Assembly: GCF_020382885.2 (NCBI RefSeq) | Contig: NC_058504.1 | Coordinates: 11,646,519 to 11,710,518 of the forward strand | From: Scatophagus argus | Lineage: Eukaryota; Chordata; Actinopteri; Scatophagidae | DNA length: 64,000 bases | Reading direction: 5' to 3' | Shown: positions 3,001-50,300 of the stretch, piece after piece | Numbering within the stretch: position 1 is the first letter of the stretch | How the letters are laid out: every line of letters starts with the position of its first letter | Program-made: the position numbers and the translations under genes | Notes under the pieces: generated by a model | Databases searched by the model: none | Told to the model about the DNA's origin: nothing | What the model saw: the letters and a program-made list of their open reading frames with translations, nothing else

Positions 3001-6000
3001 AAGGAGACAAGATGCAGAAAACCATCGTTTTGAGCGAGCTTGTCCACAAAGAGAGCTTCAAGTGCTGAGCGTTAACGCCGTGCGTTTCCATGGCTGCAAC
3101 ATACTTCTGGACTTTGCTCGTAAGCTCGACGGGACGTCCAATGTCCCTGCCGTTCAGGTTGAACTCTGGGTTGAAGTATTCCTCAGCTGTGATGGCTGTG
3201 GGGTTGTGAGGACTGGCACACTGGGACACATTACTCTGAGAGAACCAAAGAGAGAGAGAGTTATGAGTGACGGCGCTCATCAAAGGAAGCTGCGGGTGGT
3301 GTGGGAGGATGTGAAGCTGTGGATGCTCTTACCCCATTGTGAGCTGTGTGCTGTTCAGCAATCCCCAAGAAGGACTGCAGAGGAGTCTTTGAGCCTGGGA
3401 ATAATGTATAGATATCATCAACATCATCAATCTGAAAACAATATAATATAAGAGACATACTATGAGTCAAAGTGATTCATTTTGTTTATCTCATTTTCTT
3501 AGAACTTAATCTTCTGCAGTTATTCTCTGCAATTATTTTCTCTGTGCATGTGTGTATTCACCTTTGCTTCTAGACTTATCCTGGTCTGACAGATGCTCCG
3601 TCCTTGACCGAGTCACCAGCTCCACATTGGTAGCACTGTAAACCTGAACAAGAAGACACACAAAGTAATCCCTCCGCTGCCGGAAGATCCACCTTTATGC
3701 ACTGCGTGTACATATTTGTTTGGGTTAAAAAATAAAAGCATTTATTTTGCGTAAACAGCAGTATTTGAGACTGTGGCCTCGTCTCAGGATTAAGAGTCTC
3801 TCTTGGCCTATCTTTGACAGAGAAAACATGTACAGCCTGTAACTTCTCACACCGTTTTCCCAGTTTTAAAAATAATTTTCAATCCCAACGACGACCACGA
3901 ATAAACTAAATGTTTGTGTTCAAAAACCCCCTCTCAAGGCAGTGAATTAGAGAAATACTATGTCATTTTCTGATTGTTTCACAGCTGCTAGGTTTTAAAG
4001 GACATTGTTTTTGTCCTTTAAATGCGAGAAGACGTTGTTTTGTTGGATTTTGTGTGAATTCAGCCAACTCAACAGTGTGTGTGTGACCAGTCCTGTGTCT
4101 GTGTGTAGTTCAAACAGACAGTCACAAAGGCACCAACAGACCAGGGGTTCATATGTATCAGGGTCGTCATCACAAACTTACGTCATGTCACATGGGGCTT
4201 GTTAAATAGAATTAGAATAGAATTCTAATGCTAAACATACATGCGTACTTGGACCAATATTTGAACACATAAGGAACTGGGTGGAACTGGTGCTTTTTCT
4301 GGAAAAAAAAAGGCATCTGAACCAGGTTGGCTCAGTGGCCACTGACCTTGGCTTCATACCCGCTGACCACTTCACTCTTCTCAGACCGCCAGCCCCAGAT
4401 TCCCGACTTGTTCCTGAACAAGCAAAGAGATAAAGCAAGGCAGCTCCAAAAAAGCACGATGAGGCAGATATCTGCAGCTGACCTGCAAACAAATCAAGTG
4501 CAACCTCAATGATCTCGGTTTTTACCGTTCAAAGGCAATGTTGCGCGTGTTGAGGTGCGTGGAGACGATGGGCGATGTGAGTCTCTGAGCTGTGTTCTCC
4601 TGCGATGGCTGCATAGCCGCCAGGAGGGAGGGCGCGTCGAGGGGAGACAACACGAGTGGCTCTGTATACACCACCTGCTTCTCATGGTCCACCTCCATCA
4701 CCACGGCCCCATCATCTAAGAAGTGGATGTCCAGCCGCAAGAAGAAAACGCTAGTATTACACAATGACTCAAAGCATGGCGTTTTTGCCACATATAAGGC
4801 TATAGTGGTCTTTCAGAGTGGGTCCATGTTAAGTTTTCATAATAAACCTTAGCTGTGTGTGAACATGTGATGCAGTTGTAGGAGCATACACACTATGGAT
4901 CAACTGCTATGGAAAAATGATGAATATGAAATCCCATAATCAATCTAACCGCAATACACACCTCCGCCCTTGAAGATATAGCTGCGTCGTCCTTTCAGCC
5001 AGGTCATGTGTTCGAAGCCCAGAAGGGTGGTGTCCACACGGAGACATGAGCCGCTCTTCCACACCCGGTAGACATCACTGGGACATACCTTCGACACCAG
5101 GGGTACTGAGAGGAAGGTTGAAGAAGAAGTGTTAAGGACAAAAGACAAAGAGGCAGAGACAATGAGGTAACCAAACAGGGAGTGTGTGAAGGACAGAGAA
5201 AAGAAAAGCTGATTAATACGGAAAGATGTGATGTTTCTCTGGAAAATTTATACATATAGCTTGTTACATTGTGCAGCAACTAATAATTCTTCTAGTTTTT
5301 TTCACTTTTCGTGTAGCTTATGGAAAAAAAGGCCAAAAGACAAACGACTGAGCACAATTTAGAAAATGCAATGGCTTAAAATTGCTGCTTGTGGGCTAAA
5401 AGCTAAGATACCTGCCAAGATACTATTAATAATGGTGCAAAAAAAGCTAAGAGAGCAAGAAAAATGCAACCAAACTGTATTTTTTAATCGTAACAAGCAC
5501 AGCTGAAATGATGTGCAACTTAACTGATTTGGGGTAGTACTTCAGCTTAACTGATGAAGTTTCATGTACGTGGTTGATCCTTGCAATCGTGTTTTATCCA
5601 CATGGTGCACTTATTGTCAGTTACTTTGGATAAAAGCCACAGTTAAATGAATGGAAGGTAATAAGTCAGCAGGAAATCAATAAATTTCAGTATTACAGGG
5701 ACTTGTACGGACCCGTAACAACGGCTGACTATTAGAAATTTCACGCATTGCTAATTCACTAGCCATCCTTAAGAATACACATTAAGAAACATTAACGGGG
5801 AAATTATATATGTTTACTGTAAATACTAGTTGATGTAAAATGTAATTAAATGTTTACGTGAGTGAGAAAAAAAAGCAACCACCATACATCACTGAGTGAA
5901 GTGCTATTTGAGTAAAGCGCAAATAACATTTTGGCCAGGATGCTGGTGATCTGTCACGGGTTACATTTTCAGATGAACCCGTCTTGTGTATGGGCCACTC

Positions 6001-9393: not shown

Positions 9394-12300
9394 TTAGGAT
9401 ATCCTCTGGATCAGTTTTTCATCTGAGAGGCAGTAGAGCGTGTTGACGGACAGCTCGGAGATGAAGGCCTCACAGGCCTTACGGGAAACACCTTTACAGC
9501 CTCGCAGGTCGAGCAGTGAGATGCAAGAGAGGCGGCGGAGATACTTTAAACACGTGTCTGTCAATTTACTGCAGCCTGGGAAAGAGACGGATACACAGGC
9601 ACATTAATATAGTGGAAAAAAAAAATAGTCTAACATGTTCAGGCTCTCAAAAATTAATAGTTTTCTATGTTCCCTTTTAGCTCTTCCCATCAATCTCTCA
9701 CCTCCCAGGTTGAGTTCTGTGAGCGTGTTTCGGGTGGACGAGCCCACTGCAGTCAGCAGGTTGATGGAGTGATCGGTGAGGCTGTTACAATGGGAGAGGT
9801 CCAGTTTTGTTAAATGGGGCATGTGGCGGATCACCAGGCGCAGAGTGGAGTCGCTGATGTCTAGGCCTGCTAGTCGCAAAGAGTGCATGGTCCGCAACTG
9901 ACTGCGATTGTCACAGCCTGGAACAGAGATATAGGGGTTATGTGGGAAGAATGGAAGGAATATAAAGGAAGAAAAGGCTTTTCTTTCCTCACCTGGAGGG
10001 GTGATGAGATCCCTGATCTGAGAGTCCTTGACCCCGTCTGCATAACGCAGATCCAGAGAACGTAGGAGAGGGCATCCAGAAGAGCACAGAGCTGAAATAG
10101 ATGACCAGGAACAACCTGCCAGCATCAGATCCTTCAGCCCTGCAGAGTCAGGTTAAGATTTGAGTTCAATATGTGCTGGGGAACAAAACTTATTGGCACA
10201 AAGATCACTAATTCAGAATTCATTTGAAAAGCCTGGGATTTCTAAAACTATCAACTGAGTAAATATGACAATGTGATCATATAAGGATAGGTGAACTAAT
10301 AAATGAATCTTTCTTTTTTAAAGAAAAAAACAAAAAAACAAAATTAAATCTATGAATCTTTTGTTTGTGTTTACATACCAGGAAGGCGACCAACAAGCCA
10401 GTTCAGCTGCTTTTTAGAGATGTTGGTCCAAGAGAGATCGAGTGTGACCGGTTGCCTCTTTATGATGCCTGTTAGGGCCTGAGGAGTAACTGTGCGTTTG
10501 ATGCTCAGGTCAATCCGTGCCCAAAGACGCTTATCTAAGCACCTATAAGCAAGCACACATACTCATGAACAACACATCCTTTCACCTAGTTTACTACGTA
10601 CAAAGTGATATGGATCCACTGACACAATGCAAATATATGAAATGGACTTTGATAGGCTTTTATCAAATTCAGATCAAAAATCCTGTTCACAATCTGTGTC
10701 TACAACTTGAAAATGAGGCGAACAGCATAATATGAGAAATGTTAATTAAATGTATCTAAATGTACCTACATGTTTTCCATTTCTCTTTGCCAATAGCAGG
10801 TTTGGTAAGACACTGCTTTCGTTCATAAAGACATAAGAACTAAAACATCTTGTCTTACCATTTGTACCAGTTCTTGCAGACAGCCATGCACACGCAGAGA
10901 TCAGCTCGACTTAAGTAGCGGAAGACAGACACCCACACCTCTCTCTCACAGCCTGGCCCACTCCCACCGTTCTCTCTGTCTGCCTCACTCCCCCCTTCCT
11001 GCAGGGCAGACAGAGGGATGCGGACATGAGGGAGCTCAGAAGATGAAGAACAAGAGGCGCCATTGTTCAGTTTAGCCGGTCTGTTTGCCGTCGTTCTTTT
11101 CGAGGCTTCGAGTCTCTCTAGGTGGGAGGTACGAGTGACAGTGTGACCACTGCGAGTGTGTGGTGGTGTGTGCCTATTGGAGTGCAGATCAGGACAGGGT
11201 CCTCGATTTCTAATGGGAGGTCTGACAAGGGCTCTGGTCTGGTTGTGTATTGTGGAAGTGGCAGTTTGAGTGGCGACAGCCTCTAATTTGGGAACAATTG
11301 CTGATGGGTCCCGCTTGGCCCTGGTTGGTTTTTGGAGTGTCACTTTTAGATACGAGCCATCTTTCTCCCCTGTTTGACTGTTCTGCTCCATCTCCTCCTC
11401 GTCATCCTCCTCTGCACCATTTTGGTTGGCCACTTCACCCCCTACCTCTTCTCTCTCTTTGGCTGCCCGTTCTCCTCGCCTGGACTGTGGCTGGTTCTCT
11501 TTATCCAGTCCCCTCCCACTGTTATGCCCCCTCTCCTCTTCCTCGTCATCACTGCTGCTGCTGTTGGTGCTGCTGCTGCTGCTGCTGTCCTCACTCTCTT
11601 CATCCAACTCTTCATGGCTTCCACCACTTATGATTCCTCTTCCTGCTCCTCCTCCCCGCAGTCTCACCCCTCTTCCCCTCCCCCTGCGAGGTTCTCCCTT
11701 GGGCTCAAGTACCAAACCGAGGGAAGACTGCTGAAAGGACCCAGCCCCTCCTGGAGAGCTATGGTAAGGGGGGTCACTTGCCCAGGTGGAGCCCCGGCCT
11801 CTGCCCTGAGATAGGCTGCTGGCTGGGGACCGCATCCGGGACAGCACCCTGGAGCCCAGCAGCCTGTGAGAGCTATCTAAAGACGACTGTTTCTGTTGGG
11901 AGCGAAAGGGCAAAAAGAACGGCAAATAAAAACGAGATAATGCGCATTTCACACAATAAATTCAGTGTTACAAGAGACTGTCATCATGAATCATGATGTT
12001 TTACAACTGACTGCTGCATCACAATTACACTGGTGTTTAACTTCCCATGTGCTAACTGTATTAAAAAAAACAACAACAACAACAAAACATCATCATCGCC
12101 ATCATAATCACCATCATGGTTGAAATGCATCTTTAACAAACCAAGTTATTTGGATGAAACCACCTCCTAGAGTAATACTACATATTCACTGTAGTGTTAC
12201 TCAAACACAACACAGAAATAATTGACTTGCTTACTGTTAAGAGTTTGTTTCTCTCCAGTTTTATCTGCAATAGACAGAAAAAAGGTTTTGGAATGAGTTC

Positions 12301-15300
12301 ACGTCAAATAGTGAAAAAAAAAAACTTCACACACACAAAGTTTCTGCCCACTATTTTATGTCTAAGGAGTTTCAGGGTGACCCCCCCATCTTTAAACAGT
12401 TTAAAGATCTTGAGCTGAATTTTGAGTTGAGTTTGAACCTTGAGGCTTTATAAGGATTCTAAAACTAAAATTAAAACTTTAAGACAGAAACATCACTCAT
12501 GCAATACTTCCAAGTACTTTATAGAATATGCAAGACAGGATGAATGTCCAACTGTTTTAGAACAATCAATCAATGCTTTAAATCAATTTACCCCTTACGC
12601 AGAAGATTATTTATCCGTCCCCACTTGCTTTTGATCACGAAAACCTTGCAAAATTAAATTTAAAAAAGTAATTTACAAACAGTTAAACTCTCCAACCATA
12701 CCCTCTTCTTAAGTCTGAGCTCCAGTGCACTTGCTCTTTTGCGGCTCTGTTGATGCTGCAGCAGCAGTTTCTGAGAAGGTGGCGGTGCTGTGGGTAGGGA
12801 TGTGGGTCCACTGCGTCTCCCTCGTCTCACCCCTTCACCTACACCGATCCCTTCCCGATCAGCAAGTTTGGACGGCGGCAAGGAGGTTGAGCCCTCTGAC
12901 TCTTCGCTTCCCTCGTCGCTGGAAGACTGTTGTGGGGAGGTAGTAGGTGGGGTTGAAGATGAATGACTGACACTGTTAATTGAGTATCAACACACACCAT
13001 ATGGCAACTGATGGAAGTTATTGAAAAAAGAGAAAGGAAAAATGTTCTAGGACTGACTGAACTGTGACCACAAGGAGAGAGAAATAAAGGTGAAAAGTGT
13101 GTGTTTGCTACCTCTGATGCTGAGTCTTTGCCTTGGTAACATTTGGGACATTCCCAGCAGCTGGGCAAATCCTTATTGATCTTCCCCTCACCAGGTTCCT
13201 GAAACAGGGAACAGTTAAAAGTCTGAAACAGCAACTATTATATTTGAGCCACAGATGCAATTTTGTGGGCAGCAAAACAAACCCTGCAATCATTGGGAAA
13301 TGTGTTCATTTATAGACATCACTATGTCTGATTACCTTAATGCACTGACGATGGGCAATCTGCGAACAGACGGAGCACTCCATGAGTGAGTGAGTGCTCG
13401 GATTTGATTCATCTGATTCTCCTTCTCCACATATGGCACATCGCGCTGTGTTCGGCAATGCAGGCTGCAGGGAATAATAAATGTTCAGCATTTCTGGTGT
13501 TGTAAAAGAATATAAACAACATTATGTTTGACATCAGTAAGTCAAGTTTGGTGCTACTGGTCAGCACTTTTTCCCCCAATATACACAGTGCATACATGTA
13601 CAGATGGGGAGCACTATTTAGTTCCACACATAGCAAGAGAATGATTTTAGGGATAGATTGATTATTGGTTTGTCTGTTAATTAAATGTAATTTTCATCTT
13701 TCATCTTTTTCTGATTATCAGTGTGGGTTTTCTGGATGTTTTTGTTTGCTTGGCATACAATAAGTAAATTCAAAATAATTATCTATTATAGAAGTAATAT
13801 ATATAATACCAACTTATATTTTATATTAATAATCTGCATGTGCAAATTAACTATAAATTAAAGTTACCATATAAATGTGGTGGAGTATAACACACAATAT
13901 GTGCCTCTGAAATGTAGTGAAGTATAGCGAAGTAGAAAAAGGAAACGCTCAAGCAAAAATAAAAGTACCTAAAAATAGTACTTAAGCATTCAGTGGTTAT
14001 TCTAAACTTTGACACCACGATTTTTATTTTTAATGCAAATGAATACCGGTTCCAAATATCAAATATCTGTCTCCTGGAATACTATTAATACTGGCCAGAA
14101 AAAAAAAAACCTTAATGGATCCTTAATGGGTACAATGACTCACCGCTAGACACTGTCTCATGATACAACTCTTCTTCATACGTCCAGGCCCACCAAACTT
14201 CCTCATGTCGTGGCAGTAATGGCAGTTGCCGCACTCCTTCCTGCAGCAGGCGGCACAGCGCTTGCACCTGACCCGTCTGCGCCTCAGGGCCGAGATGGAG
14301 GAGCGTTTGGTGCGCTTCTGACCAAGAGATTTGTGGAGGGTGGGGCCTAAGCGAGGACGGTAAAGGACAGTGGGAGGAGGAGCTGGGGCCTGGTACCATG
14401 GTGGCTGAATAAGGGATATCAGCAGGAAACAAAAACAGGTTAAAATCGCCTCCTGTAAGCACATAACAGGCTTGCGCCATGTTTGATGAGCCAGAATAAA
14501 GTGCTTAACAATACACAACTATTTCTATAATAACATTAAAAAAAAAAGTGATTACCGTAAATAGCAGAAGTAAAAAAACAAACCTGCCCTGTATACTAAA
14601 TATACAGTAAGAAAAGGTTAAAACTAATTGAAGCACCAAAATTTCACTCTAAATTTCTGCTAACAAATCGCTACCTTCATCATCTCTACGGCGCAGTATG
14701 TTTCTATGTACAGCTAGATGCAGAGCGTGAACAATAGTTCTCTACCTACCCTTGCGGGCCACTTGACAATGGGCTCTCCGGTGTAGGCCAGACTGGGGTC
14801 ATCATTGGCGTGCTCCTTCAGAACAGCCTGGACAAGTGTAGAAGAAAGAAGGAGTAGTAGGACAAAGAAACTCAATTGATCTTTGAATATAGCATAGCCA
14901 GAATGAGTTTATTGTGAGATGAAATGCACAAGGAATTTAGGCGAAGCCCACCCTCATGTGGTTGAGCAGGGCTGTGGGGTTCCTGATGCCCGCAGGGACA
15001 CACTTTTTGTGGGACGGCAGCTCCTCCAGCTTCCCCAAGAGGTTACACAGTCCCTCCAGCTCAAAAGTCGTCAGCAAGTGCTTAGGTGCGGTAACTTGAG
15101 CCATCGGAGCCGTCTCTTCTTCTTTGACTTTTTCTTCCTCGAACTCGACCTTCTCGTTTTCAGTGTCACTGTCAACTCCATTCGAGGTGCCATTCCCAGC
15201 ATGATCATAGGTTTCAAGGTCAGTTGGGGTCAGTCCTGAAAAGACAGGGGACACAATAGTTGAAGTTCATTGATAAACTGTGTTTGTGTGGAAAACGGGG

Positions 15301-21190: not shown

Positions 21191-22204
21191 AGCGTTTTAA
21201 TGGTGGAAGTAACATAAAATGGAAACAGTCGTGTAAAGTAGGATTACCTCAGAACTGTACATTGTACACGTACACTACATGAGTGAATTTAATTAGTTCA
21301 TTTCCACGACTTCTCACACATGGCAGCAAAATGTATTATCATAAGATATTATATAGATCTTCTCTTACTGTGTAACAGTGAATAATATTGTTTTCCTCTA
21401 ATGCTAATCTAACTACTTACTTTCTATACATACAGGCGACATATATAATAATACACATACGCTCAATTTATAAGAATACGTCAGATTACTATTAGGTCTG
21501 TAGATACAGATATGAGTTCATATTACACTCATATTACCATCTCCATATTATTCTTAAAAATTTTTTTTCGCAAATATACACTTATATACACAAATATACA
21601 CTTTTATTCCTCACGTCCTTCCCAACATGTCTCTTCTTAAGCTCCCATAACGCTAAATTTTTCTCCGGGGTTATCAGTTGTTTTACCTCTGATGCACAAT
21701 CCTGCTTATCCTCCAAACACGGAGCAGAAAAACGAACGCACCCCTGTGTAGACCCCGCCCCACGGGATGCTGACGGGCCGAAGAGGCGAGATGGGGGGAT
21801 GAAATGAGGTCACGGAAGCCCTTCAGAGACGGACGTCATGTCGTGCATCGCTATACATTTGCCGTAGCTTTAACGCAAAGTAAATCAGAGACAAATAAAA
21901 TGGACGATGCCTGCAAAGTGAAAGATGTTGGGTTGTATATAATCAGGCAGAACGGCTCTCTCTATGCAAACAGGCGATCAGCTGAGCCTTGTTGAGCCCC
22001 CCCCCCCCAGCCGGAGACAAGAAGGGAAGCATACAACACTTGCAACAACGCACAGAAATCTTTTATTACATAACAGGCTTTACCGGGTTGACACACAGCC
22101 AGTGAGCGAGTGACGGCCACTGTTACAGAAAAGATCATCAGTAAAAGCATTGCAGCAGCACAGACGCATACAGACATGGTCACACACAACAAAATCACAC
22201 ACAG
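21191..22204. other. Spacer between kdm2a and stx3, with GC box and poly-C tract
   Basis: No gene is recognised. A GC-rich patch at about 21720-21800 contains CCCCGCCC (GC box) and several CpGs, and could be a distal kdm2a promoter or an enhancer. A C10 run follows near 22000. The rest is AT-rich with no structure I can interpret. Confidence 0.3.
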
Positions 22205-22417: not shown

Positions 22418-22790
22418 ACTACAGCAGACCAGAACAGGCCACAATGATGAAAAGTGACATGTTGAGCCAACTGGTTCTGAACAGACTGAGAAAAATCTAC
22501 ACATTTATAACATTTTTAACAAAAATTAAATTAAGATGACTGATAAAAGGGTAAGTGCACAGGACTGATATGGTTCAATTTATACAGCTTTAATACTTTG
22601 TTAGAAACAGATTCAAATAATGTTCAAGGTGAGAACGGGGGAGCAACTCGGGAATCTTTTTAAACCCTCTTTCCTAGAAACACTACACAAAGACATAAAA
22701 AAAAATATATCATATTTATTTACCATGTAGTGTGAAAGAAGAAAATTCAGAGTTAAAGGCTGATGCAGGTGTTTACCTGTGTAAAACCTT

Positions 22791-22868
22791 TTACGAGAAG
22801 AAGCTGTAGAGATAGGAGAACCCAACAATTCCAATGATGGCACAGCACAATGTAATCATCATCTTTTT
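22791..22868 (-). CDS. stx3: stx3 alternative terminal exon 3 (membrane anchor, syntaxin-3B/1-like)
   Basis: This 78-nt last exon has an acceptor (CCACAG) and a TAA stop. It encodes KKMMITLCCAIIGIVGFSYL plus five residues (YSFFS). The basic KK followed by a hydrophobic segment with CC resembles the syntaxin-1/3B anchor type (KKIMIIICCVILG). It is phase 0, so it can follow either SNARE exon. It lies about 3.2 kb beyond the canonical anchor exon, so its use requires skipping the first two. Confidence 0.75.
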   Translation of the reverse strand, partial: KKMMITLCCAIIGIVGFSYLYSFFS

Positions 22869-25550
22869 CTGTGGATTTAATTAAAAATAAAAAAGACAAT
22901 AGTCAGATAACAGCATTCACTGGATTTAGGCTGTAATTGACGGGTTGCAGGTGAACACAATACATTTGTTCACATTTATGGAAACACTGGTTTGAGGAAA
23001 TGATGGCACAAAAGGAGAACAAAGGGTCACAGAGGTTTGGGTGTTTGTATATGTGCGTAAAGAAAGAGGAAAGATGAAAAAATGAACGTCCTTACCTCCT
23101 CTTTGGCACAAATCTTTAAAAGATGCACTTTGTAACACAGTGGTTAACACACTGCATCAACAGTCTGCTGACAACAGCTACTGCCATCCCATAAAAACAT
23201 TCACACAGTTCTTCCACAACAGGCAGTCATCAAAAAGTGAAAAAATTCAGTTACATATTTACATGTTGACACTCACAAAGTACAGCAGAGGCACAAATTC
23301 ACAAGATTAACACTATTCATCTAAGCCATTTTTCCTCCTTCTCATACCGCAGCCCACGTTACTGGCTAAAGTGGTGCGAAGAAGGTTTGAATAGAAGCAT
23401 TCGGACTGAACCGTCGAGGACAGAAGCCAAAAGAGCACACTGTGTACTCAAAAGACCAAGCTGGGGAGCCTCTCACATTCAAGTGCTCCCTGCACAACCA
23501 AAACTAAAGGCACCATTCAGCTTCTGGTCTGACAAAAACAGAGGCTTCTCTCAAGAGATGGCAGCCTTCATAATGCGCTACAACGCCTGTGCATCTGGTC
23601 AGTGACTGTTGATTAAAATTGATCATCAAATTGATCAGTTTGTGTATGTACAGCAGAAGTCACCGTCTTTAATTAACTAATTGACTTATTAAGGCCACTG
23701 AGTGACAACACGTGCATGCGCTCTTCTTAACAAGAAGAAAAAGCCCATTGAAATGACACTGACCAAGCAGAATTAAACTCATCTTATTAGATACACATAC
23801 CTAAAACTAATGCAGTCTTAATCTTAATATGGTTTGGTTTATTAACATACATTCATATAATGCAAGATATCAGACATGTAACATATCAGGAAGAGATAAA
23901 GTTTATGCTCAGATTCTTCATTCTTCTTCTTCATTGCATTTATTGGAAAAAAACGGGGCTAAAACTAGAGAAATTAAATGAAACTGTCCAAGATACCCAC
24001 TGTTTCAACAGTAGTCTTTTTGGAGGTTGTACTCAGTGTTTATGTTGTACTGTTAATAGTACCAGAAAATACTTCCAATATTTTGTTTGAGGTCAAAAAT
24101 CCCTGAAATATAACGCAAGACCATTCAAAATACTAGAAACTACAGTCTCCAAAATCCATTAAGTTTAACCAACATGTCTCTGATGCTGGCAAACAAAACC
24201 GAACATTATAACCTTCAAGAGAAAAGGATTTATTGTAAGGCTGCTGTATTAGAACACATTAGTGTCAGACAGCTGCTAATAAAGTTAACTAAGATGTATG
24301 TTTACAGTAGAAATAATGAGAGACTTAGAATATGTCAAGAAAAGCATCTCACATTAGTAAAAAGCCACCAGTCAGGGAGACTCTACTCTATGTTAGATTG
24401 TCAAATTTCCACCACATCCTGTATGTGTGACTTTATTAGCGACGCGTCATGAAAAAAATACAATAAATACAAAGATTATTCTGGCACTTACAGGGAAAAA
24501 GGTAGTGTTACTACCGATATCTCTTTACACCCCCTTGGCATTTAAAATGTTTTGACAGCATTTTAATATGGGAAACAATCATGTCCATATACGTATAAAT
24601 TTGCATTGCAACATTGTAAAAGGTTAGCAAAGACATAGAACAAATTATCAGGCATTTCTTCCGGATGTTAAAATGTTCAGATAAATCTCCAAGCAAGGAA
24701 TGCGTCTTTATCCCCACAGCCTGTCTCTTCTATCTTTTTGCTTGTTTTCTTGTCTTAGCTCGACCTGTCCATGAGTTTCACCATCCTTAACATTTAAAAC
24801 CACTGGGCTCTCTAAACTGAAAAATCATAAGTGAGAGCACCAGCCCTCTTCAAGTTAAAGAACTGAGCCATATTCATGGCTAGACATCAATAACAAACAG
24901 AATAATAATTCTGCTATTTACACGATTGTCTAAACTTAATTACAGACATAAGACATTGTAACACACTGAAATGTGAAAGTGCAGGACTCCCAAAAGAACA
25001 ACATAATTTCGATACAGTGAACATACAGTAGCTAGCTTTTCAATTGCAAAGTGTGTCAAGGCTCATTAAGGCAAGAAACAATGATACGAGAAGTGAGGTG
25101 CTTCTACGAGGCTTCACAAGTCAGACTTACTGGACATCAGAATAAATTTCAGAAGACAAACTCTTCCAGGTTGATTCTTTGGCACCAAGTGTTGAACAGC
25201 GAAATGTTTTGTGACCTGGAGCGACATCACGATCAGGTATTTTTCAATTCCCTTTTCTTCTCCGCAGAGATACTACTGGTATTGTACGTCATGTCAGCTT
25301 CAGTCTCATTTCCTCTTTTGCAGCAGAGAATCCTCAAACTGAGGGAGTCAAACAGACTAATTATCAGAAGTCTCATAGGGCTTCCTTTTCCAAAAGGTCA
25401 AAAGTAGTAGAGCTTTGTGGGTTAAATATTATTATATCCATATGGAGTGATTATCGTTTTATTTTTTTTCTTTCTGGCAGGCCAGCTGATGAAGGATAGG
25501 TCGGAGGGGATGATGAATAAACTGACGATGGCAACAAGGCAGTCGTCCTG

Positions 25551-25628
25551 TTATAGTGTCTGTGTGAGGATGATGATGAGGATGATGAGAGCAACCACAG
25601 CACAGACCACTCCAATAATGATCATCTT
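25551..25628 (-). CDS. stx3: stx3 alternative terminal exon 2 (membrane anchor)
   Basis: This 78-nt exon has a strong pyrimidine tract with C9, then TTCTGTAG. It encodes KMIIIGVVCAVVALIILIII followed by LTQTL and TAA. It is phase 0. The reading frame is open, hydrophobic and the right length for a tail anchor. I do not match it to a described syntaxin-3 isoform. TTTATT at 25457-25462 gives a possible AATAAA for its transcript. Confidence 0.65.
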   Translation of the reverse strand, partial: KMIIIGVVCAVVALIILIIILTQTL

Positions 25629-26019
25629 CTACAGAAGGGGGGGGGGATGGAGAGAGAAAAGTGGAGAACAGCGTTAATGATAGGGAATCAGCACGAAATA
25701 AACCCACAGACCAAACACCCGCTGAAACGGTTTGCGACTAAGTCACTACTAGCACTGCCTTGTTTGTTCAGCAGTAACCACAGGCAAGCGCTGCAGAAAC
25801 ACATGAAACACACACACACACACCCAAAGACTTCAAATATACACATACACACCTCAAGTAATCCCTCTGGATAGACAGACAACACGCACACAAAGCCTGT
25901 GGAAGAGCGTCAAAACCCTTTTCCAAAGCACGCTTCATACCCACACCCATTGTGGCACAACTGAGGTTATTTGCTCCAGAGTTACTCACCACTAGCTCTC
26001 CTCTTACTCAAATAGTTCA

Positions 26020-26538
26020 TCAGCTTCGCTTCAATCCCACTGACAACCCGATAATGAGAGCTAGTATGGCCAGCAAGATCAGCACAACCACCACTATTAT
26101 CACCATTTTCTGTTGGGAACAACCAAGGGCAGAGTGTAAAATCAGCTGGAAACAAGAATAAGCAACAAATACCTAATCTACCACTGAACAAGGTTTTATA
26201 CTAGTTTTGTATGAGAAAACATGTACAGTATATGGCAACAATGGCTGTATCATGTATCCTGGATTCTCTTTGTAGCTAAGTAACCACACAAACTCAGTGC
26301 ATCAGTCTTGCTAAAGTATGATAAACCAGTTTTCGCTTGACAAGAGTGTTGATTTTATGTTAATCCGTCAATACAAGCATTATTTTCACATGCATGATGT
26401 AACAGTCCAAAGTTAATGAGCAAGATCTTTCAAACACACAAAACCACAGGATACTGACGACAGACATGAGCCAACTGTAAAAAAAGATTTGGTTAAAGCT
26501 AAAGAGAAAAGAGAGAGAGAGACGAGTGTGGAAGCTGT

Positions 26539-26577
<39 letters not shown>

Positions 26578-29500
26578 TGTGAGTAAGTAGGGGGTCTGGG
26601 TCTTGGTGCTGGGCAGGTCAGTGGGTTGCAAGGGTCCACAGGTCACAGGGTGGTGGAGGCTCAGGAACAGAGTACACAGGATGGTTGGGGGGTGTCATCA
26701 AAAGTACGGATCAAGTTCTTGACGGTGGGGATGGTCTTCATTTTATCAGGCAGGTTTCCCAAAATCAACTTTGTATTAAAGATGAATTCCACGTCTGACA
26801 CTATGAAATGCAATCTGGAACAGCAGTTTGAGTGGCAGATCCGTAAGGCTGAAATCCCATCAGATACTAAAGCGAACAACAGAACAAAATTTTACCATTT
26901 TTCATCAACAATAACTAATTTGTCTTTCACTGTGATGACTGCAAGGTAAACTGCAGAAATATGGCACATATGGTCCAAAGTAATTTTACAAGAATGTGGG
27001 CTTGCATGTATTTCACTGACACTGCACTTTGCAGAATCACCTCACATTGCAAAACTTAAGCCACATGGATTTTAGTAATTAGCCATATTTTACTACAAGG
27101 CCAGGCTTGTGAACTCTGACTCAATCTTTGTCCTGTGGCATGCAATTTCAATTCCTTTCTTCTCTTCTTTGTACTGCTTGTACGACAAAATTCCACTGAT
27201 CTGAAAGCCATCGCTGCTCTTTAATGAATGACTATTTCCGTTGCTTTTGGGAAACCGGGCTGCCCTTCATGACGGGAGTCACTCACACGTCGAGCCTCTT
27301 GCTGAAACTTTGCCGCTTTCTTTGTGTCTGCTACAGCGCGCTCCACAAAGCCTACTGACTGGTCCATGTTGCTCTCAATCCTGTCAATCATTCCACCCTA
27401 ACATTGGACACGGTGTCAAAGGTGACGAAAAGCGAAAAGAGAAAATGAAAAAAAAAAAACAACAGAGAGAGTGAAGGACACAACGATTGTGTGTCATTGG
27501 CAATGCATCTGCAGGGCGAGGGACTGTGATCATGGACACACTGGGTGGTTCAAATGTGCCAACCAGTGGACAAAAAAAAAAGATGTAATGTGTCTAAGAA
27601 ATAAGCAGAAAAAAACAGGAAGAGAGCAACAGCAGAGTGGTGTGGCAGTTGACTAAATTACATTACCTTGCGTGCTTTGGTCTGGTACCTTACAGCTTTT
27701 TTGGTCTGTTCCTGGGCCACAGTTATGTGGTCCACTGACTTGGATACATTCTGCTCTATGTTGTCTACTATGTCACCCTGAAAAAAACAACAACAAAACA
27801 ATCAGTGAGAGCAATACTTAATGAGCTGAAGTATCATTGATTTAAATATATAAAGTAACATATCCGGTTTCAGATTTGTAAGTTTATGATGACCTTCACT
27901 CAAGTGAAGGTCTTGAGACAGCTTCAAGAATGACATCATGAGGAGTTTTGTTTGTAATTTCATGGGAAAAACATTCATATTATGTCAATGCTGAGTTTCC
28001 TTTGGAACAAACCTCTGCTGCAAATAAAATGGTTACAAAAGAGTTTAAAGGGGGGAAAAAAAAAATCAAAAAAAAAAATCACACAGCACAGAAAGTAGGA
28101 GCGGGGCCCTTACCTCAAACAAGGCTTCCCCTCAGAAAGCACGACGCAAGTAGCAAGAAATATATGGTTAGACCTATGCATGCATATGCATACAGTGACT
28201 CACTGATCAATATGTGTGTGTGTGTTTATTCTAGAGTGAAGTCTGCTCTGATGTCTACAATGATGCTTTATTCATTCATCTTAACAAATGCATTCATGAT
28301 GGTTCCATCAGTGTTGAGTGATGACATGGAGGTGGCAGTGGCAGAAAAGCAGCAAAGAGATGGTTAAGAGAGGCATGGAGCTGGAAAAGAGAGAATAGAT
28401 ACAGATGCAGATTGATCGTCAGATCACAGAGGAGACAGGAAAAGAAATGAACAGGGGAACAAGACTTTGATTCGGTCAGGACACACATGCCATGGGGAAA
28501 GCTTTAGAATAAATGGAAAAAGTGAATGAAAGAATTAAGTATCTGATGGATGGACGGTGGTCGGCAGGTGGATACTGTACCTGGCTCTCCACCAGCATGG
28601 CAATGTCTACAAACATGTCATGCAGCTCCTTGATGCTACTTTCCAGACGGACAATGTCTTTGTGTCTGGCTTCAATCTCACTCAGGGCTTGTTTAGAGAT
28701 CCCAGAGTCCACAATCTGTTCACAGACAGACATGCACAAAAATAAAATCTCATCATATCAGAGTCTTAATGAAGAGCAGCTGTCCCTGGGTCCCATTTAA
28801 TATTTCCTTTAGATTGGCTGTGATCTGGTTTACAATGCATCTTACAATGCACAACATGCACAAAATGTTCAGGTTTGGACGGCTTTTAAAGACACGTGAG
28901 ACACTAAGTTGTTATCAAATCTATGAATGCCAAATTGAGTCATGTATCCTTGAGCAAGGAACTCTTCCCAGGCCGTCACCCTCTCGGCAAAGTAGGCACA
29001 CAGAGGTTTTCTCACCAGTTGAAATGCATTGTGCACATACGGTTGTCTGATCGGTTGAGACACACAGGTGCTTCTTTTACGATACAATACAGTACAGCAC
29101 TCTCTGTCTGTCTTTAAGGACTGCTCGTTGGCTGTTGTCAGCATGTCAAATGAGGTTTTGGGCACTCAAGAAGGCTAAAGAGAGCAAACTGACTTTGAGA
29201 CCAAATCACAAGGCACAGCTAATCTTTAACTACTTGATAAGTTTTACTGAGCAACTGACAACTTGACTTTCTCTCGCCTTAACCACGTGATCAGCGTCAA
29301 GACAAAGTGAACGTTAAGGAACTGTTAAAAATAACGCAAATGTATGCAAGTGTGCACATGCACAGACACACACACTCTCCTACCCCTGCAGTAAACACCG
29401 CAGCATTGCCACTCTCCAACATCTCCTCCAGTTCGTCATCTGTTGTTGCTTTTCCAGCTGGAAAGGAAAGAAAAGGTTAATGATAAAGAAGACCACAGGA

Positions 29501-32500
29501 CCATCACATGACTTTATGGCCATGCATCTGGGTATCACTCACTGATCTCTAGCTGTCGTTGAATACGCCCTTTACTCCTCTCCCTGAAGTCCACCTGGGC
29601 TTCATTATACTTTGTCATTACCTCCACAAACTTCCTAGACAGCACTGCATGCTGGGAGACAACAGAGATAATACTAATTAGCACAAAAGTTAATTTGCAT
29701 GTATGGACAATCTGTCAAGGATAAATGTCAATGTAAACTCACATTTATAATGAGAGAAGGAAAATGTTGCAAATATTTTATAACATATAAAATAATAAAA
29801 ATAAGAATAAGGATGTAAAAAGAAGACCAGAGGAGGAATTTAAGAATGCAATATCAAAAGTCTTTCAGTCTATGAAACCAGCTTTAAATGGTGGCCACCT
29901 GAGAAATCATTTACCTGTGATTTACGTATCCGCATGTCAGCCGATACCCTTTCCTGCTCTTCTGACTCCAGATTCCTCTCAATGGCTGGCAAGCAAACCA
30001 AATCACTGATTTATTACTCAACAAACACGCCACATCATTTTTCTTAAGTATTCTTAAGTATCATTTCACTGCAAATCAATTGAATAGATCCAATCTCACT
30101 GATAAGTTGTCTGTGTGTGTGCGTGTGCATGTGCTAGGCTAACTCACTCTTGAGTTTGTTTCTTGCATTGTTGGCCATCTTCTTAATGTCATTGGTGATT
30201 GCCTCCAAGTCATCCTGTGTTTCTGGGAAGGAAGAGATATGCAGCAATGAACAGCTAAGAATGTTAGCAACAGGGCGAGGGAACCACACTTACTGCAAAC
30301 AAACTCGTACTGTTCTCAAGTTAAATGTTTTGTATGACTGGCAACGACAACATGCAGCATATCGATTTCACTTTAAAACCACCTGTGGTTTCTTTTGTGT
30401 GTGTGTGTGTGTTATTTGCAAAAGTCTGATATCACACAAAAATACAGCTTGTAAAGCAAGAACACCCTTAACATGGTCCTGAGTGAGTAAGGTAAGATGA
30501 ATATATTTGCAGAAGAGAAACGATTGTGGTGGTAAGGTATCTTACTCTGATCTGACGTGGGAGCAGACAGGATCACAGAGTAAAGCTTTTTGACTTCAGC
30601 CACATTCTCATCAATTTTATCAATGCTGTTCCTGATGTCCTCAATCTGAAACAAACATGAATCTCAAATGTATGGCACCGACAAAAATTAAGATATTCAC
30701 GAACATTCACCCACGTATAAAATAAAATGCAAGTGAAGAAGTATAAGCACCATGCCCGGATGCAAACACACTGACCTGACAGAAGAACTCGTCCATGAAG
30801 GCTGCGTTGTCCACAGCAATCTCCACCTCGTCGTCATCTTGATCACATGTCTGGCATAATAAAAGAAAAAGCTGTATCAGAGAGGTACTAGTAGTTCCAA
30901 GTGTCCAGAGAGAACGTGTGAAGGGTATTACATGTTTTTCTGAGGCTTACAGTATAAAGCATGTCATGAACACCTTGAGATCAAAAAGTTCATTCAGATG
31001 TTCACTGTAGTTAAATCACATCTGTGTGTGTCTGTAAGTCCACTCTTTATTATAATACTCTATAAATAAAGTTATTTTTATTATTGTTAATATTATCATT
31101 ATTCATCTTCATCACCATTCTACTTTATGCAACTCTTCTTAAATCCTATTTAAGTGTCTTTATGTCTTGCTTTAATGCCTTTTTAGGTTTTAGGTAAAAC
31201 TCTTGCATCGCCTGTACATAGAAAGTCGCTCCACAAACATGCTTTGTGAACAGTCCATTTCCTATATAAAGCTACGTGTCAGTTAAAGTTTTGATACTGA
31301 TGTGATATGTCGTGCTATTTTTTCAATATGTTGTTTTAAGGGATACATATTGTGTTTTTCAGTGAAAGCATTTTTTGTATATATGCTTAACACAATAAGC
31401 TAAACTTCTCAAATGCATCACGACTATATCCTGGAGTCATTCCGGCGAGGTTACCAGGCAGAGCAAAAACACCAGGAAGTCACTGCTCACAGCCAGCAAA
31501 TAGCCTGGCACGTGACTATCAGTAAGACGCGTCGTTATCACTCTTTGTTTTTTGTATAGTTTAAACAAATGAGATATAAAGGCATTAATTATAGAGCCTT
31601 AGAGGTGCTGGCTCTGATGGTGTTACTTATGGACAGAATCAGGTCAGCTGTTTCCTCTTGTTTCCAGGCTTTATGCTCAGCTAAGGTAACCGGCTGTTGG
31701 CTGTGGCTTCATAAAGTGTACAAGAAAGTAGTATTCATCTTGTCATATCACTATTACAAGAAATCAAATAATCGCATTTGTCAAAATAAACTATAGATTC
31801 AAATCTGATTAAACACTAAGCACCTAAGAACTTTGTCCATATGAAATAAAGTCAAAAATTATGATCACTTTATAATGCATTAAATGAAGACTTTCAATAC
31901 TTCAGCACCAGTTCACAGCCCAATACTGATGTCTGTCTGTGAATTCTGAAGTAAATAATATTGTTCTAATTTCATGCCAAAAATAGCAAGTGATTCTCTA
32001 GATACACATTTCTTATCAGAATACAAAACCCACTGAACAGCATTTTGACTCTGAACAAACACTGACTAATGAAAATTGTTTCCTGGTTAGCATCTCAACG
32101 TGATACATCAACCAGAAATATTGAACTGACCCTGATCAGCCTACACCCAATAAATTCTGTCAGAAAGCTTCACTCTGCTGAAGTCATAAATGTGTCACAA
32201 GGAAAAGTCAGCAAACACAGGGCAGCGCCACAGGTTGGCCACAAAGCCCTCAGCACTGCTGTGAATATTTACACGGTGAGGGACTAGGGCAGGGCTCCAG
32301 GAACTCAACCTGTTTTCAGCTAGCTGTAAGAAACCACCGCTGAAGTACAATGTAAACAGACATCACAGGGCCATGCTGTGACGGAGTTAGGAGGAGAAGA
32401 AACCAGGTGAAACAATGAATTAAAAAGGGACATTGGGCTGACTTTGTTCCCTCCCTTTCTATTACTTCTGCATTTTCCAGGCAAATGTGTTCACATTGAA

Positions 32501-35256: not shown

Positions 35257-36727
35257 TATACAATAACAAGTACCATTTAAAGATCACATTAATGGAAGTA
35301 TTCAGTTGCATAAAATGCCACCACCACCACTGCTCCTCCTCATCCAAATGATTTTTTAAGCATTTCTAAAGTGTTCAAATTGATCAGCTCAAATACACTA
35401 GGCTCAGCTTCACTCTACAGGCTGCATGGGCTACAGCTGCTGACGTATTTTCCCCCCAAACATGCCTTGCACTAAACTGAAGAACACTTGCAGTGATTGG
35501 CTGAAAGCAAAATCATACAGATAGTCATTTTCTTCTAGATTTGGATGTAAAATGAACAAAATGCAGAAATATTTAACTGAAAAAGTTTCAGTGCTACTCC
35601 ATACTGGCTTATTGGTTGATGCTCTCAAACTATCAAGTACTGATACCCAGCCCGACACCAATAACAAACCAATAGACAACCTAGATCACAACGAGCAAGT
35701 TAAACATTAGAGAAGAAACTCAATGAGGCAAACAAAGACGCTCGGTTAATGTGGATGTAGAAGAAAAATAAAGAGTGAGATAGTAAATGGTGATGGGACA
35801 AAATCAAACATGCTGTATACGCTGACAGCTTCACAACACATGACTGACGCGCTTCACTTGCCATCTGTACTTCCTTGCTGTGAAAAGAAGGCAGCTGTGT
35901 GAGACACAGGCGCCTGAGGGGATACAGCAGTCCAGCAACTTTAAACACAACAAATATTTGGCCAGCAGTTTCACGTATCTATGGCAACACATCCCGACAT
36001 GGCTTCCAGTTGGATTAGGGCCTCTGTCCCATGAGCAGCTGATACATTCACTGTCATTAGTGCAACTTTGCACGGGAAAAAAGATTAACACTGTGAATGT
36101 TTCTGTTGCTAATGATTTCTCCGTTGCTGCTGAACAAGATTTGCAATCTTACTGTGACGGATAAATACAAAAAGGTATCGAGGACTTTGGTTCAATACAT
36201 CCCAACGATAGATCATGTGTTCATTTTTACAACTCTACACTTTGACCTTTACTATTTTCATCTGAGGCTGCCAAGTGCTAAGGCTGAGTAAATTTATCGT
36301 TATTTTTTGGAGAAAAAAAAATACATCTGGTCACAGAGTTCTACTTATAACAATTACGCTACTCTATTAATTGCACTACCTTAGAAAACTGATGTATGAA
36401 CGACTGAAATGATTTAACCATCCCAACATCACCATTTCAAAGAGCTTTCCAAAGTGCAACGTTACTACAGCACATCCTCAAGTACGAGTTATGTCATCAC
36501 ATGGTACACCAACGTACGAAAATGATTAGGATTTTATGCATGAAGCATTTAAGTTTGAGGCTTAGGTAAAAATGGAAACCTCGCAAATTTCTTATCTTAA
36601 CCTCTTAACCTTCCTCAGAGAAACATGTTTCAAAAGGCCAACAAAAATGTACAGACAACACTGGGAGGAAATGTAACCTTTCCTGGACACTACTTACCGC
36701 TTTAAGTTGCTCCAATCGGTCCTTCAT
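26020..36727 (-). CDS. stx3: Syntaxin-3 (main isoform, A-type C-terminus)
   Basis: Qa-SNARE of the plasma membrane for apical and secretory vesicle fusion. Exons: 36698-36727, 30776-30850, 30546-30645, 30148-30222, 29915-29985, 29543-29651, 29384-29457, 28581-28715, 27667-27777 and 26020-26109. The total is 870 nt, 289 residues, the same length as human STX3. The first exon [10 protein letters not shown] equals human STX3. The Habc region includes [17 protein letters not shown]. The SNARE motif starts about [20 protein letters not shown]. Residue Q223, the zero-layer glutamine, is the last codon of exon 28581-28715. The tail anchor is [20 protein letters not shown] and the protein ends LKRS. 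STX2 and STX1 were considered; exon 1 and the A-type tail favour STX3. Intron 1 is 5.8 kb. Alternative C-terminal exons are listed separately. Confidence 0.95.
26541..26580. repeat. (TG)n microsatellite in stx3
   Basis: Twenty GT units with one A interruption at 26571. It lies 430 nt upstream of the canonical anchor exon. On the transcript strand it reads CA. Confidence 0.95.
27139..27144 (-). promoter_or_regulatory. UGCAUG (RBFOX-type) motif downstream of stx3 SNARE exon B
   Basis: CATGCA on the plus strand reads UGCAUG in the transcript, 142 nt downstream of the exon B donor at 27286. Other transcript-strand UGCAUG copies in stx3 are at 26389-26394, 28179-28184, 28731-28736, 28855-28860, 29357-29362 and 29521-29526. 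Function is inferred from motif and position. Confidence 0.45.
27287..27397 (-). CDS. stx3: stx3 alternative SNARE exon B
   Basis: This 111-nt, phase-0 exon has an acceptor (TGTTAG) and a strong donor (CGT|GTGAGT). It encodes SNARE layers +1 to +8 and the juxtamembrane region: [20 protein letters not shown], then [34 protein letters not shown] is the signature of the syntaxin-3B form found at retinal ribbon synapses. It has the same length and phase as exon A at 27667-27777, and about 15 of 37 residues are identical. Joining both exons would keep frame but give a double half-helix, so mutually exclusive use is likely. Confidence 0.88.
27667..27777 (-). CDS. stx3: stx3 alternative SNARE exon A
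   Basis: This 111-nt, phase-0 exon encodes [20 protein letters not shown] and then [17 protein letters not shown]. It resembles the second SNARE half of epithelial syntaxin-3A (NIELNVMHTVDHVEKA). The acceptor follows a T-rich tract; the donor is AAG|GTAATG. It is included in the 289-residue main isoform. Confidence 0.92.
33162..33190. repeat. (AC)n microsatellite
   Basis: Uninterrupted AC dinucleotides, about 14 units, in stx3 intron 1. Confidence 0.95.
35209..35260. repeat. Compound (TA)n(GA)n microsatellite
   Basis: A TA run passes into GAGAGAGA and then back to ATATA, in stx3 intron 1. Confidence 0.95.
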
Positions 36728-47339: not shown

Positions 47340-50300
47340 ATGTTGAGTCCATCGAGTCCAACCCAGAAGAACCTCGTTGAAGAGGACAGCTCTGGATCTG
47401 ATGCAGGGTCAGAGGTTGCCCTGGAACCTGAGACAGACCGCTTTGGCTTCATTGTGACCAATGGATCCACAGCTGGGTGAGCAGTTCCACATTTATATTT
47501 GTGTACTGTTGCTGTTCTGTCATTTAGCCTGGCACTGAACCAGGTCTACTGCTTCTCTGTTTCCATTCTCTCTTCAAAGAGACATTTTTACTCAGGTAGA
47601 TCAAATGGAAGAAAGGCAAATGAAGTTCGAGGTGACAATTGAGATTATTTGCAGGACTTCACAAGGCAAAAGCAAAAAGCAATACACAATGTTTTGTGTC
47701 ACGAAAATATCGGCTGAAAGTTTCTAAGGAGCTGTACAGTACACCCTGTCATTTTCTTCCAAAACAAGACCACATATTTCTAAAGAGACCATGTATCAGA
47801 AGACCAGTATTTTAATCCAACGCTTTTATGAGAATGAAAAGCATCTGTATCCAAGACACAGAGCCAACAGGCAAATAACAGACAATTAAAATTAGTAAAA
47901 TGCAGTCAGGAGACAATTAGTAAGCAGCTGCAGCTTCCAAACCATTTATTTCATAATAAAAGTGCACATTATAAATGGAAAGGGTGGGCCAAACAATAGA
48001 AAACGTTTCTGCTCAAGAGTGAAAGAGAGCCTTGTTGACACACAAAGTGGAATTTGAACTTTAAGAGAATTTAAATGAGGAGACACAAACACGAGCCACC
48101 AGTGCATAAACCCTACAGTTAAACATGTTGCCAGAAATATTTATAAGTGGTAATTTTTATTTTTTTTCCATCAACAAAAGCGCTGCTCTGTTTTGCAGAG
48201 GCATGCCCCTCTTATGTTGTGAGAAAAAGACTCATTTTGAAGCAGGACAGAGCCCCCCTGCTTTAATGTGGATTTTATAATGTTGGTGAAAAGTGCAAAA
48301 TTCTTGCCGGATCGAGATGAATTAAGAAAGTGTGCCCGCAGAATACAGAGCATTTTCTACTTTCAGATAATGTTAGCAGACTTTTCAGGATCAGTTGACT
48401 ATATGTTTACAATGTATTTAATCACCAGTGAAACAAAACATCCTGGACTGAATGGTGCAGTGTAAATCCAGGATAACACCAATTGAATAAACCTGTTGCC
48501 TTCACGCTTTCCCCATTGATAACATCCTGACTTGTTACCATGGAGACTTAAAACTGCTACCGTGTGGTTTTCCTGTTTCCTGTCTTGATTTTCAGAGCGC
48601 TGTCTATCTAGAATGACAGCACACAATAGTGCAAGCAGAAACTGTTCACAGTAACATAAGGTCTTTCTCTCAGGGTCTCTGAGGTCTCGCACTCTTGTAT
48701 TGAACATGGCTGTTTAATGCTTAAAAAACTTACCTGGCGTTTGGTGTGCTGTTTTGTGTCAGGAGTGTGGGTCCACCCCCTGAGTTGGTCAGGCAGAGGG
48801 AGGCCAAATGGATTAACATCATTGGCCAATGGGATCGCATCTTGTTGAAGAAAAGCAGTAAGGTGTGTCCCATCTTGGATACCTAAAGTCATTACATATA
48901 GTGTAAATAAACTGCTAAAGTGAAGAGTGATAGATCTTTTCCATGAAAGACATTTTGACATGTCATAGTAGGGAAAGCACAGTAAATATTAAAATAAATG
49001 ATGGCTCAATTCTATTTAGTTTCTTCAGTTTCAGGGTCCTTTCAAAGTTTTGTGCATGTTGGCTCACTGTCACACTGTCGAGGCCACCTGGGACAAATAG
49101 AACAGGGGAATTGTTACTGCTAGTTGTAACGTCTACGGTTTCTTGTTGATTCATATTGAAACCTCACACTCGGTACCTATCCTGTGTCCCTTCAGATCAA
49201 AGTGCAGTGTCAGAAAGGCATCCCAGCCTCCCTCAGAGCTAAGTGCTGGCCTCTGCTGTGTGGGGCTACTGACAGGATGAAAAGAAACGAAAATCTCTAC
49301 AAGGCAAGAAAACTTAACTGTGTGGAAAAGGCTTTTAAATCATCAGCAACAACCACAGACCACAGGGTTCAGTATACTCTTTACTGAATGTGCAATAACC
49401 ACATGGGGAAGGAGAAAGGGTGACCAGGGGGAAAAGTTGAAAGTCGATTTAGTGAATAGAAAAATGAATGACAATTTTCACAATCAATTCATTGTTAATT
49501 TCCCACTACTTTCAGTATTATATCACTTTAAATCCAATATCTATTTAAACACATCACCTTGGGCTCTGTAAACTGTTTTCTGATTCGCTAACATGAGAAG
49601 TTGATTAATTGATTAGCCACTCAACAGAAAATTAACTGATTAAGTTTATTTAAGTTGCTTTTCTCTATTTTATATCATATATCATTTGGGTTTTGGACTG
49701 TTTGACCAGAATATCTTGAGCTGTAGGTTCTTATAATGTCAGATTATCAATATTTACTGACTTTTTATGCTAAATTTTCTATTCACTAACAACAACAGAT
49801 TATTTAAAATGCTTGTTAGTTGAAGTACTCCATGTGAATCAGACTCATTTTAGTGCAGTATATTAAGTTTTACTGCTTGATACTGCAGGTAATGGAATTT
49901 AGCAAAGTTCATTTTTAATCTCGAAGGTGAATAGAGTTTGTAGATGGCTGACTAAAACTATGTTTTGCCTGTGAATTAGTCTCTGGACTCGCAGTCCGCT
50001 CTGCAGAGCTGGGTGGACGTGATTGAGAGAGACCTGGACCGGCAGTTCCCTTTCCATGAAATGTTTCTTTCCAAGGATGGACATGGGTAGGAACCATTTT
50101 TTCCTCTCTTTGTGTGTTAACAAGCTGATGGCTACAGAATAATCCCACAGTTTCTCTAATCTTTAGTGTGCCTCAGCTGCTGTTACTCCACCTATATATT
50201 CATGCTTTCTCTTTGTCTCTGTTGCAAAGCTGATTTATTTCTAAATAAGGTTTAAACTTGTGGTTCACCTGTGAATGACTGCGGTGTGTGTCTGTGTGTG

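Follow-up and report, generated by a model that had tools for sequence, protein, structure and literature searches.

The stx3 gene of Scatophagus argus appears to hold the parts for a third membrane-anchored form of its product, syntaxin-3. The gene lies on the minus strand of a 64,000-nucleotide (nt) stretch of contig NC_058504.1 (assembly GCF_020382885.2, positions 11,646,519 to 11,710,518), hereafter the window, from whose first letter all coordinates are counted. The C-terminus of the protein would be composed of the SNARE helix half past layer 0, encoded by either of two exons (A or B), and one of three anchors (T1, T2 or T3), A+T1 giving STX3A and B+T3 giving STX3B, as in mammals. This is mostly the known mammalian STX3 design, and its new part is the third anchor, T2, in what appears to be the slot of human exon 11A. 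T2 would serve as 3′ untranslated region (3′ UTR) when T1 is included; if T1 is left out, T2 would supply a third transmembrane anchor. Skipping of T1 would thus keep the protein membrane-bound here, where skipping of human 10A frees it. The exon anatomy, the reading frames, the splice-site-like signals and the correspondence of T1 and T3 to human exons can be read directly from the DNA, and from them we infer, at roughly two chances in three, that T2 is used as the anchor of a third isoform. The names of the human exons (9A, 10A, 11A, 9B, 10B and 11B) are those of the study that printed human junction probes (PMC8263458); this and the other papers cited here by PMC number are drawn on through their accessible excerpts.

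A third hydrophobic anchor frame

As an earlier note on this DNA had described, the coding parts of T1 (26020-26109), T2 (25551-25628) and T3 (22791-22868) are each preceded by AG, start in phase 0 with a Lys codon, encode one hydrophobic stretch and carry their own stop. The further claim that all three are terminal exons did not hold. The T1 exon (25990-26109) continues from its 29-residue anchor and stop through 30 nt to a donor-like site, GTG/GTGAGT, and the T3 exon (22777-22868) from its anchor, KKMMITLCCAIIGIVGFSYLYSFFS, and stop through 14 nt to CAG/GTAAAC. T1 and T3 are therefore probably not terminal and look like stop-bearing cassette exons; T2 alone looks terminal. With an approximate donor matrix, the T1 donor scores 5.37 (top 0.41% of the GTs in the window) and the T3 donor 3.55 (top 1.6%), while the best donor within 400 nt past the T2 stop reaches -1.09. 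AATAAA occurs past T3 at 22720, 22210 and 22067, and a putative 3′ UTR exon, comparable to human 11B, is suggested at 22062-22119 by an acceptor with a 120-nt AG-free tract and by the AATAAA at 22067. The mRNA would continue from T1 or T3 into such a 3′ UTR exon. A short distance between stop and junction should, as a general rule, spare an mRNA from nonsense-mediated decay, and since the two stops lie only 30 and 14 nt from the junction, decay should not apply.

T1 is the counterpart of human 10A, to which it is identical at 19 of 27 residues (p 0.0002, the last seven human residues being presumed), and T3 that of human 10B (9 of 20 residues, p 0.0002); T3 also matches STX1A at 11 of 25 residues (p 0.0002). 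These residue comparisons used 5,000 shuffles, for which 0.0002 is the lowest obtainable value. By sequence, T1 is thus a 10A-type anchor and T3 a 10B-type anchor with Cys-Cys. An alternative in-frame acceptor upstream of T1, TTCCAG (26110-26151, minus strand), would place 12 more residues after the SNARE half, ahead of the anchor.

T2 is the next exon past T1, and its coding part encodes KMIIIGVVCAVVALIILIIILTQTL, closed by a stop. The sequence behind it (23838-25550) is a putative 3′ UTR of inferred extent, with AATAAA at 25463, 24437, 24234, 23944 and 23843. In phase with both A and B, the T2 frame holds a 21-residue uncharged stretch whose 19-residue Kyte-Doolittle mean reaches 3.68. The rarity of such frames was gauged by scanning the window on both strands for acceptor-like AGs (at least 65% pyrimidine). 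Among the 744 AGs that passed, six entries had a closed frame of 20-45 residues with a 19-residue mean of at least 2.0; four of these were T1 and T2 with their alternative AGs (3.82 and 3.68), and the remaining two scored 2.06 and 2.03. T3, at 2.02, lies outside this filtered scan, its acceptor being 63% pyrimidine. When the filter was dropped, 8,265 AGs had a frame that closed within 100 codons, and six entries among them scored at least 3.0, five of which were T1 or T2 and one a plus-strand frame at 3.04. T2 was also shuffled 20,000 times with its dinucleotides preserved: no shuffle attained 3.0 free of stops, and 70 attained 2.0. The other five reading frames of T2 are not hydrophobic, and the ATC-rich stretch of the exon therefore reads as Ile and Leu in the coding frame only. 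Hydrophobicity arising by chance from that stretch is rejected by the shuffles and the five other frames, and the T2 frame is hydrophobic far beyond chance.

The T2 acceptor (25626-25631, minus strand) reads TAGAAG, a pair of the NAGNAG type; if the second AG were used, the Lys would be lost and the anchor would begin with Met.

Half-SNARE exons and their pairing with the anchors

The part of the protein common to all forms ends in exon 8 (28581-28715) on the zero-layer Gln, Q223, and the swap starts directly after it, a junction that had been proposed before and that the rebuilt 223-codon model confirms. Exon A (27667-27777), which encodes SNARE layers +1 to +8, begins GDIVDN and ends QTKARK; exon B (27287-27397) begins GGMIDR and ends QQEARR. 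Their earlier description as phase-0 exons of 111 nt is correct, AG preceding and GT succeeding each, and so is the statement that A/B forms are known from mammals, A being the counterpart of human 9A and B of human 9B. Exon B matches the 3′ part of human 9B at 17 of 20 residues, against 11 of 20 for 9A. The same comparison is indecisive for exon A (11 of 20 against 9A, 10 of 20 against 9B), which was taken as 9A because it is closer than B to the presumed human STX3A sequence (58% against 46% identity over the full exon) and because it precedes B. Exon B also matches STX1A at 24 of 37 residues; the alignment of the B+T3 product with the STX1A of PDB entry 2m8r extends through the anchor and scores 68.5 bits, that of A+T1 with STX1A in PDB 46.8 bits. 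A and B agree with each other at 15 of 37 residues and 57 of 111 nt (codon-shuffle p 0.001), and on this sequence evidence they are homologous adjacent exons of equal length, as in mutually exclusive exons.

Nothing in the frame enforces such exclusion. Transcripts that include both A and B, or skip both, would still be in frame, and the reading frame therefore does not police the choice; since the intron between them, at 269 nt, is not tight, neither feature forces exclusion. The earlier count of six A/B × anchor combinations is right as far as it goes, all six being open, 285 or 289 residues long and closed by one stop, but 12 are frame-compatible once A+B and neither are included. Compatible frames do not prove that any of these combinations is used.

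The acceptors of B and T2 stand out among those of the gene. Exons repressed by PTB, like those with distant branch points, typically have a long pyrimidine-rich region free of AG before them, and exon B is preceded by an AG-free tract of 109 nt (27400-27508) and T2 by one of 91 nt (25631-25721), which together with the 120 nt of the putative 11B-like exon compare with 15-52 nt at the ten other acceptors (exons 2 to 8, A, T1 and T3). AG-free tracts of at least 91 nt precede 0.49% of 4,055 minus-strand AGs. Over the preceding 100 nt, B (73%) and T2 (71%) have the highest pyrimidine content of the 13 acceptors compared, and 73% is reached by 1.1% of all 100-nt minus-strand stretches; close to its AG, exon B is weak in pyrimidine (58% over 19 nt). 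CTCTCT occurs three times in the 269-nt A-B intron, against 1.42 per kb, which fits a PTB-type tract, but the copies are few. These features suggest that the B and T2 acceptors use distant branch points and are repressed by a PTB-type factor. In mouse, a Stx3 exon of 111 nt has been predicted to be PTBP1-repressed with a probability of 0.84 (PMC3907290). The RBFOX motif TGCATG is not enriched overall in the window (50 copies, 54.3 expected), and the density of Musashi-type TAG near exon B is not raised. In addition, T1 lies between a CA repeat (26541-26570) and a TG repeat (25808-25823), which are paired with each other in a predicted RNA fold, and UGUGUGUG is a CELF2 motif (PMC4946901). This pairing may be due to chance, as 15 UGUGUGUG-type runs occur in the window, and the fold is not unusual overall (z -0.94, equalled by 3 of 20 shuffles); it is a lead only.

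The exons that are swapped differ at residues with assigned functions. If Q226 is taken as the zero layer of STX1A, on which the numbering of the clamp positions rests, the GGMIDR of exon B keeps both D and R, whereas the GDIVDN of exon A keeps D and has N for R at the position of STX1A R232. At the juxtamembrane end A closes with KARK and B with EARR. Among the anchors, T1 has no Cys, T2 one and T3 two (Cys-Cys), and the uncharged stretch measures 25 residues in T1 and 23 in T3, that of T2 being the shortest. The A/B choice would accordingly decide whether the clamp residue is N or R and whether the juxtamembrane residue is K or E, and the anchor would set the Cys count and the uncharged length. 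The clamp role of syntaxin SNARE residues has been described in PMC10957171 and the role of the anchor region in palmitoylation in PMC9183232. In the latter, STX1A palmitoylation is governed by juxtamembrane K260 and two cysteines of the transmembrane domain, STX3B having Glu at the juxtamembrane position; STX3A given the STX1A linker along with either the cysteines or the transmembrane domain showed greatly raised spontaneous release, the form with linker and transmembrane domain releasing without clamp; and transmembrane domain length is cited as a basis of syntaxin distribution. By analogy with this mouse STX1/STX3 work, B+T3 would correspond to the quiet ribbon form and A+T3 would be akin to the chimera with excessive release; the latter point gives reason to expect that the A/B and anchor choices are coupled.

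It is in fact only slightly worse than an even bet that the two choices are locked, with A+T1 and B+T3 as the sole products, with or without A+T2, and no free combinatorial code. Such locking would agree with the A-with-A and B-with-B pattern described in human and mouse, where 9A pairs with 10A in STX3A and 9B with 10B in STX3B, the latter together with 11B (PMC8263458), and with the predicted faults of cross forms such as A+T3, which would combine a Lys juxtamembrane region with a Cys-Cys anchor like that of the over-releasing chimera (PMC9183232). Against it stand the frames, which are open in every A/B × anchor combination, and the acceptor features that B and T2 have in common, which would fit a B+T2 form. 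In mouse neurons, it is to the second SNARE half and the anchor that spontaneous release, clamping and palmitoylation have been linked (PMC9183232, PMC10957171), and natural swapping with three anchors would provide native versions of the chimeras that have been built by hand.

Relationship of T2 to other syntaxin anchors

The proposal that the middle anchor, T2, matches no known isoform stands in part. Within the printed probes it is not human 10A, 10B or 11A, but it weakly resembles an alternative anchor of STX2, whose anchor residues are presumed in all these comparisons. T2 residues were compared with six references, among 18 reference comparisons in all, and its DNA was compared using 1,000 codon shuffles. 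The best reference match is the second STX2 anchor (10 of 24 residues, raw p 0.0022, about 0.04 when corrected for 18 comparisons), followed by weak matches to the first STX2 anchor (p 0.013), T3 (p 0.033), human 10B (p 0.039) and T1 (p 0.049). At the DNA level T2 is closest to T1, five of the 1,000 codon shuffles being as good (p 0.006), and both anchors start with KM; the values against human 10B and T3 are p 0.036 and p 0.063. T1 itself aligns with the first STX2 anchor at 15 of 25 residues (p 0.0004) and with the second at p 0.0006. Hydrophobic segments align easily, and no origin of T2 is therefore demonstrated by these figures.

Two histories can be set against them. One is tentative: skipping of T1 would have opposite outcomes among vertebrates, anchored here and soluble in human, and an ancestral gene with three anchors may have given rise to a mammalian STX3 that kept two of them, the slot of the third becoming the STX3S exon, and to an STX2 that kept another pair. 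The other is a little more doubtful still, and regards T2 not as an old anchor lost in mammals but as a lineage-specific copy of another stx3 anchor exon, most likely T1, to which the DNA value of 0.006 and the common KM start point, along with the residue match at 0.049. This copy reading has to contend with the alignment to the second STX2 anchor, which is at least as good, with the weak matches of T2 to T3, human 10B and the first STX2 anchor, with the fact that T1 too aligns with the second STX2 anchor, and with the hydrophobic bias that limits any test of the origin of T2.

The known system closest to a T1-skipping transcript is STX3S, the soluble human form in which 9A is joined to 11A by skipping of 10A (PMC8263458). 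As in STX3S, the 10A-type exon would be skipped and the next exon used; unlike STX3S, the predicted product here is membrane-anchored (19-residue mean 3.68). According to the probe of PMC8263458, the human 9A-11A junction encodes an in-frame product of 15 residues, KLISLQTGVATLVFR and a stop, with a mean hydropathy of 0.96 against 2.67 for T2. Homology of T2 with 11A was tried over the 60 nt printed and is rejected (3 of 15 residues, p 0.41; DNA p 0.93, 16 of 48 nt alike ungapped). The remainder of the gene follows mammalian STX3, with two half-SNARE exons (111 nt here, and a 111-nt exon in mouse) that swap the sequence past layer 0, with 10A-like and 10B-like anchors, and with stop-bearing anchor exons that, by their donor-like sites, may be joined to further exons; the difference lies in the exon in the 11A slot, which encodes a transmembrane anchor here.

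Several points weigh against a translated T2. The absence of similarity between T2 and 11A leaves their common slot without backing from sequence, and the slot itself is placed by analogy with the human splicing pattern and not by the chromosomal order of exons. Since T2 would be present in STX3A mRNAs as 3′ UTR in any case, its splice signals are no proof of its translation. The donor matrix does not discriminate sharply, as the clear donors of exons 3, 6, 7 and 8 score 0.28-1.34, below that of T3. As for regulation, the 111-nt mouse exon is a model prediction that the accessible part of PMC3907290 does not name 9A or 9B. It is nevertheless unlikely that T2 is solely the 3′ UTR exon of a T1-T2 transcript for STX3A, its open frame being a relic or an accident. 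T1-T2 splicing is indeed to be expected from the strong T1 donor 30 nt past the stop and from the lack of any AATAAA or ATTAAA between T1 and T2, and human 10A skipping joins 11A (PMC8263458), from which 11A would be the 3′ UTR exon of STX3A; yet a relic would need to have kept intact a frame that is in phase, reaches 3.68 and exceeds what the shuffles and, T1 apart, the AG scan produce.

Exchange of anchors by splicing is not peculiar to stx3. Syntaxin2 has two isoforms that differ in the anchor (PMC4946901), two where stx3 would have three here. By the presumed residues, one of them resembles T1, and the other resembles both T1 and T2. In Caenorhabditis elegans unc-64, exons 8a and 8b swap the C-terminal anchor (UNC-64A/B) under the control of the CELF protein UNC-75 (PMC4946901). 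As in stx3, alternative exons exchange the anchor; unlike stx3, the 25-residue unc-64 anchors differ in their last 14 residues only, and a half-SNARE swap is not described in the accessible part of that paper. No account of a third-anchor isoform of fish stx3 was found in the open-access literature, an absence that says little: the excerpts of PMC11119284, PMC8263458 and PMC1794582 are silent on it, and a zebrafish study (PMC5760100), which is antibody-based, names no stx3 isoform in its accessible part. Should T2 prove to be both used and conserved, it would hint at the source of the soluble human form, whose importance could then be tested simply by comparing species.

Upstream exons and neighbouring genes

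The upstream part of the gene was rebuilt by tblastn with a presumed human STX3A protein sequence as query. Eight coding exons run from 36727 to 28581 on the minus strand and add up to 669 nt, or 223 codons, ending in DIAMLVESQ; every internal junction has its AG and GT. The coding part of exon 1 (36698-36727, donor GTAAGT) matches human STX3A at 10 of 10 residues, its tblastn E value of 0.49 being due to its short length. Exons 2 (30776-30850), 4 (30148-30222), 5 (29915-29985), 6 (29543-29651, 95% identity to human STX3A) and 7 (29384-29457) were placed by tblastn and their junctions, exon 3 (30546-30645) by the tblastn-guided model and its junctions, and exon 8, described above, has 89% identity. 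Exon 3 is 100 nt long, the size of the human exon 3 that is skipped in r.115_214del (PMC8263458), and mouse 3C and 3D differ in exon 3 (PMC11119284). In each of the three isoforms submitted, out of the six (A+T1, B+T2 and B+T3), the Pfam Syntaxin (Habc) domain (135 bits) is followed by SNARE (46-54 bits), and by this domain order and the STX3-like sequence the locus is identified as STX3. As expected for an animal gene, no syntaxin relative was found in viral contigs (29 pattern matches, none related) or in prokaryote genomes (60 pattern matches, none related), and plasmids gave no match.

Downstream of stx3, open frames on the minus strand at 9604-14518 hold leucine-rich repeats, an F-box and a CXXC zinc finger and are presumably KDM2/FBXL19-like, and an exon of an ANKRD13 C-terminal domain lies at 2720-3328, also on the minus strand. 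On the plus strand, a 315-residue open frame starting MSQSRNPTDTQG occupies 61239-62186 and matches nothing in Pfam at E 0.01, and RabGAP-TBC exons at 50279-54229 are followed by an 899-residue Glu-rich open frame with 14-residue repeats. The ANKRD13, TBC and CXXC/F-box neighbours recall what we take to be the human 11q13 synteny of ANKRD13D, KDM2A and TBC1D10C.

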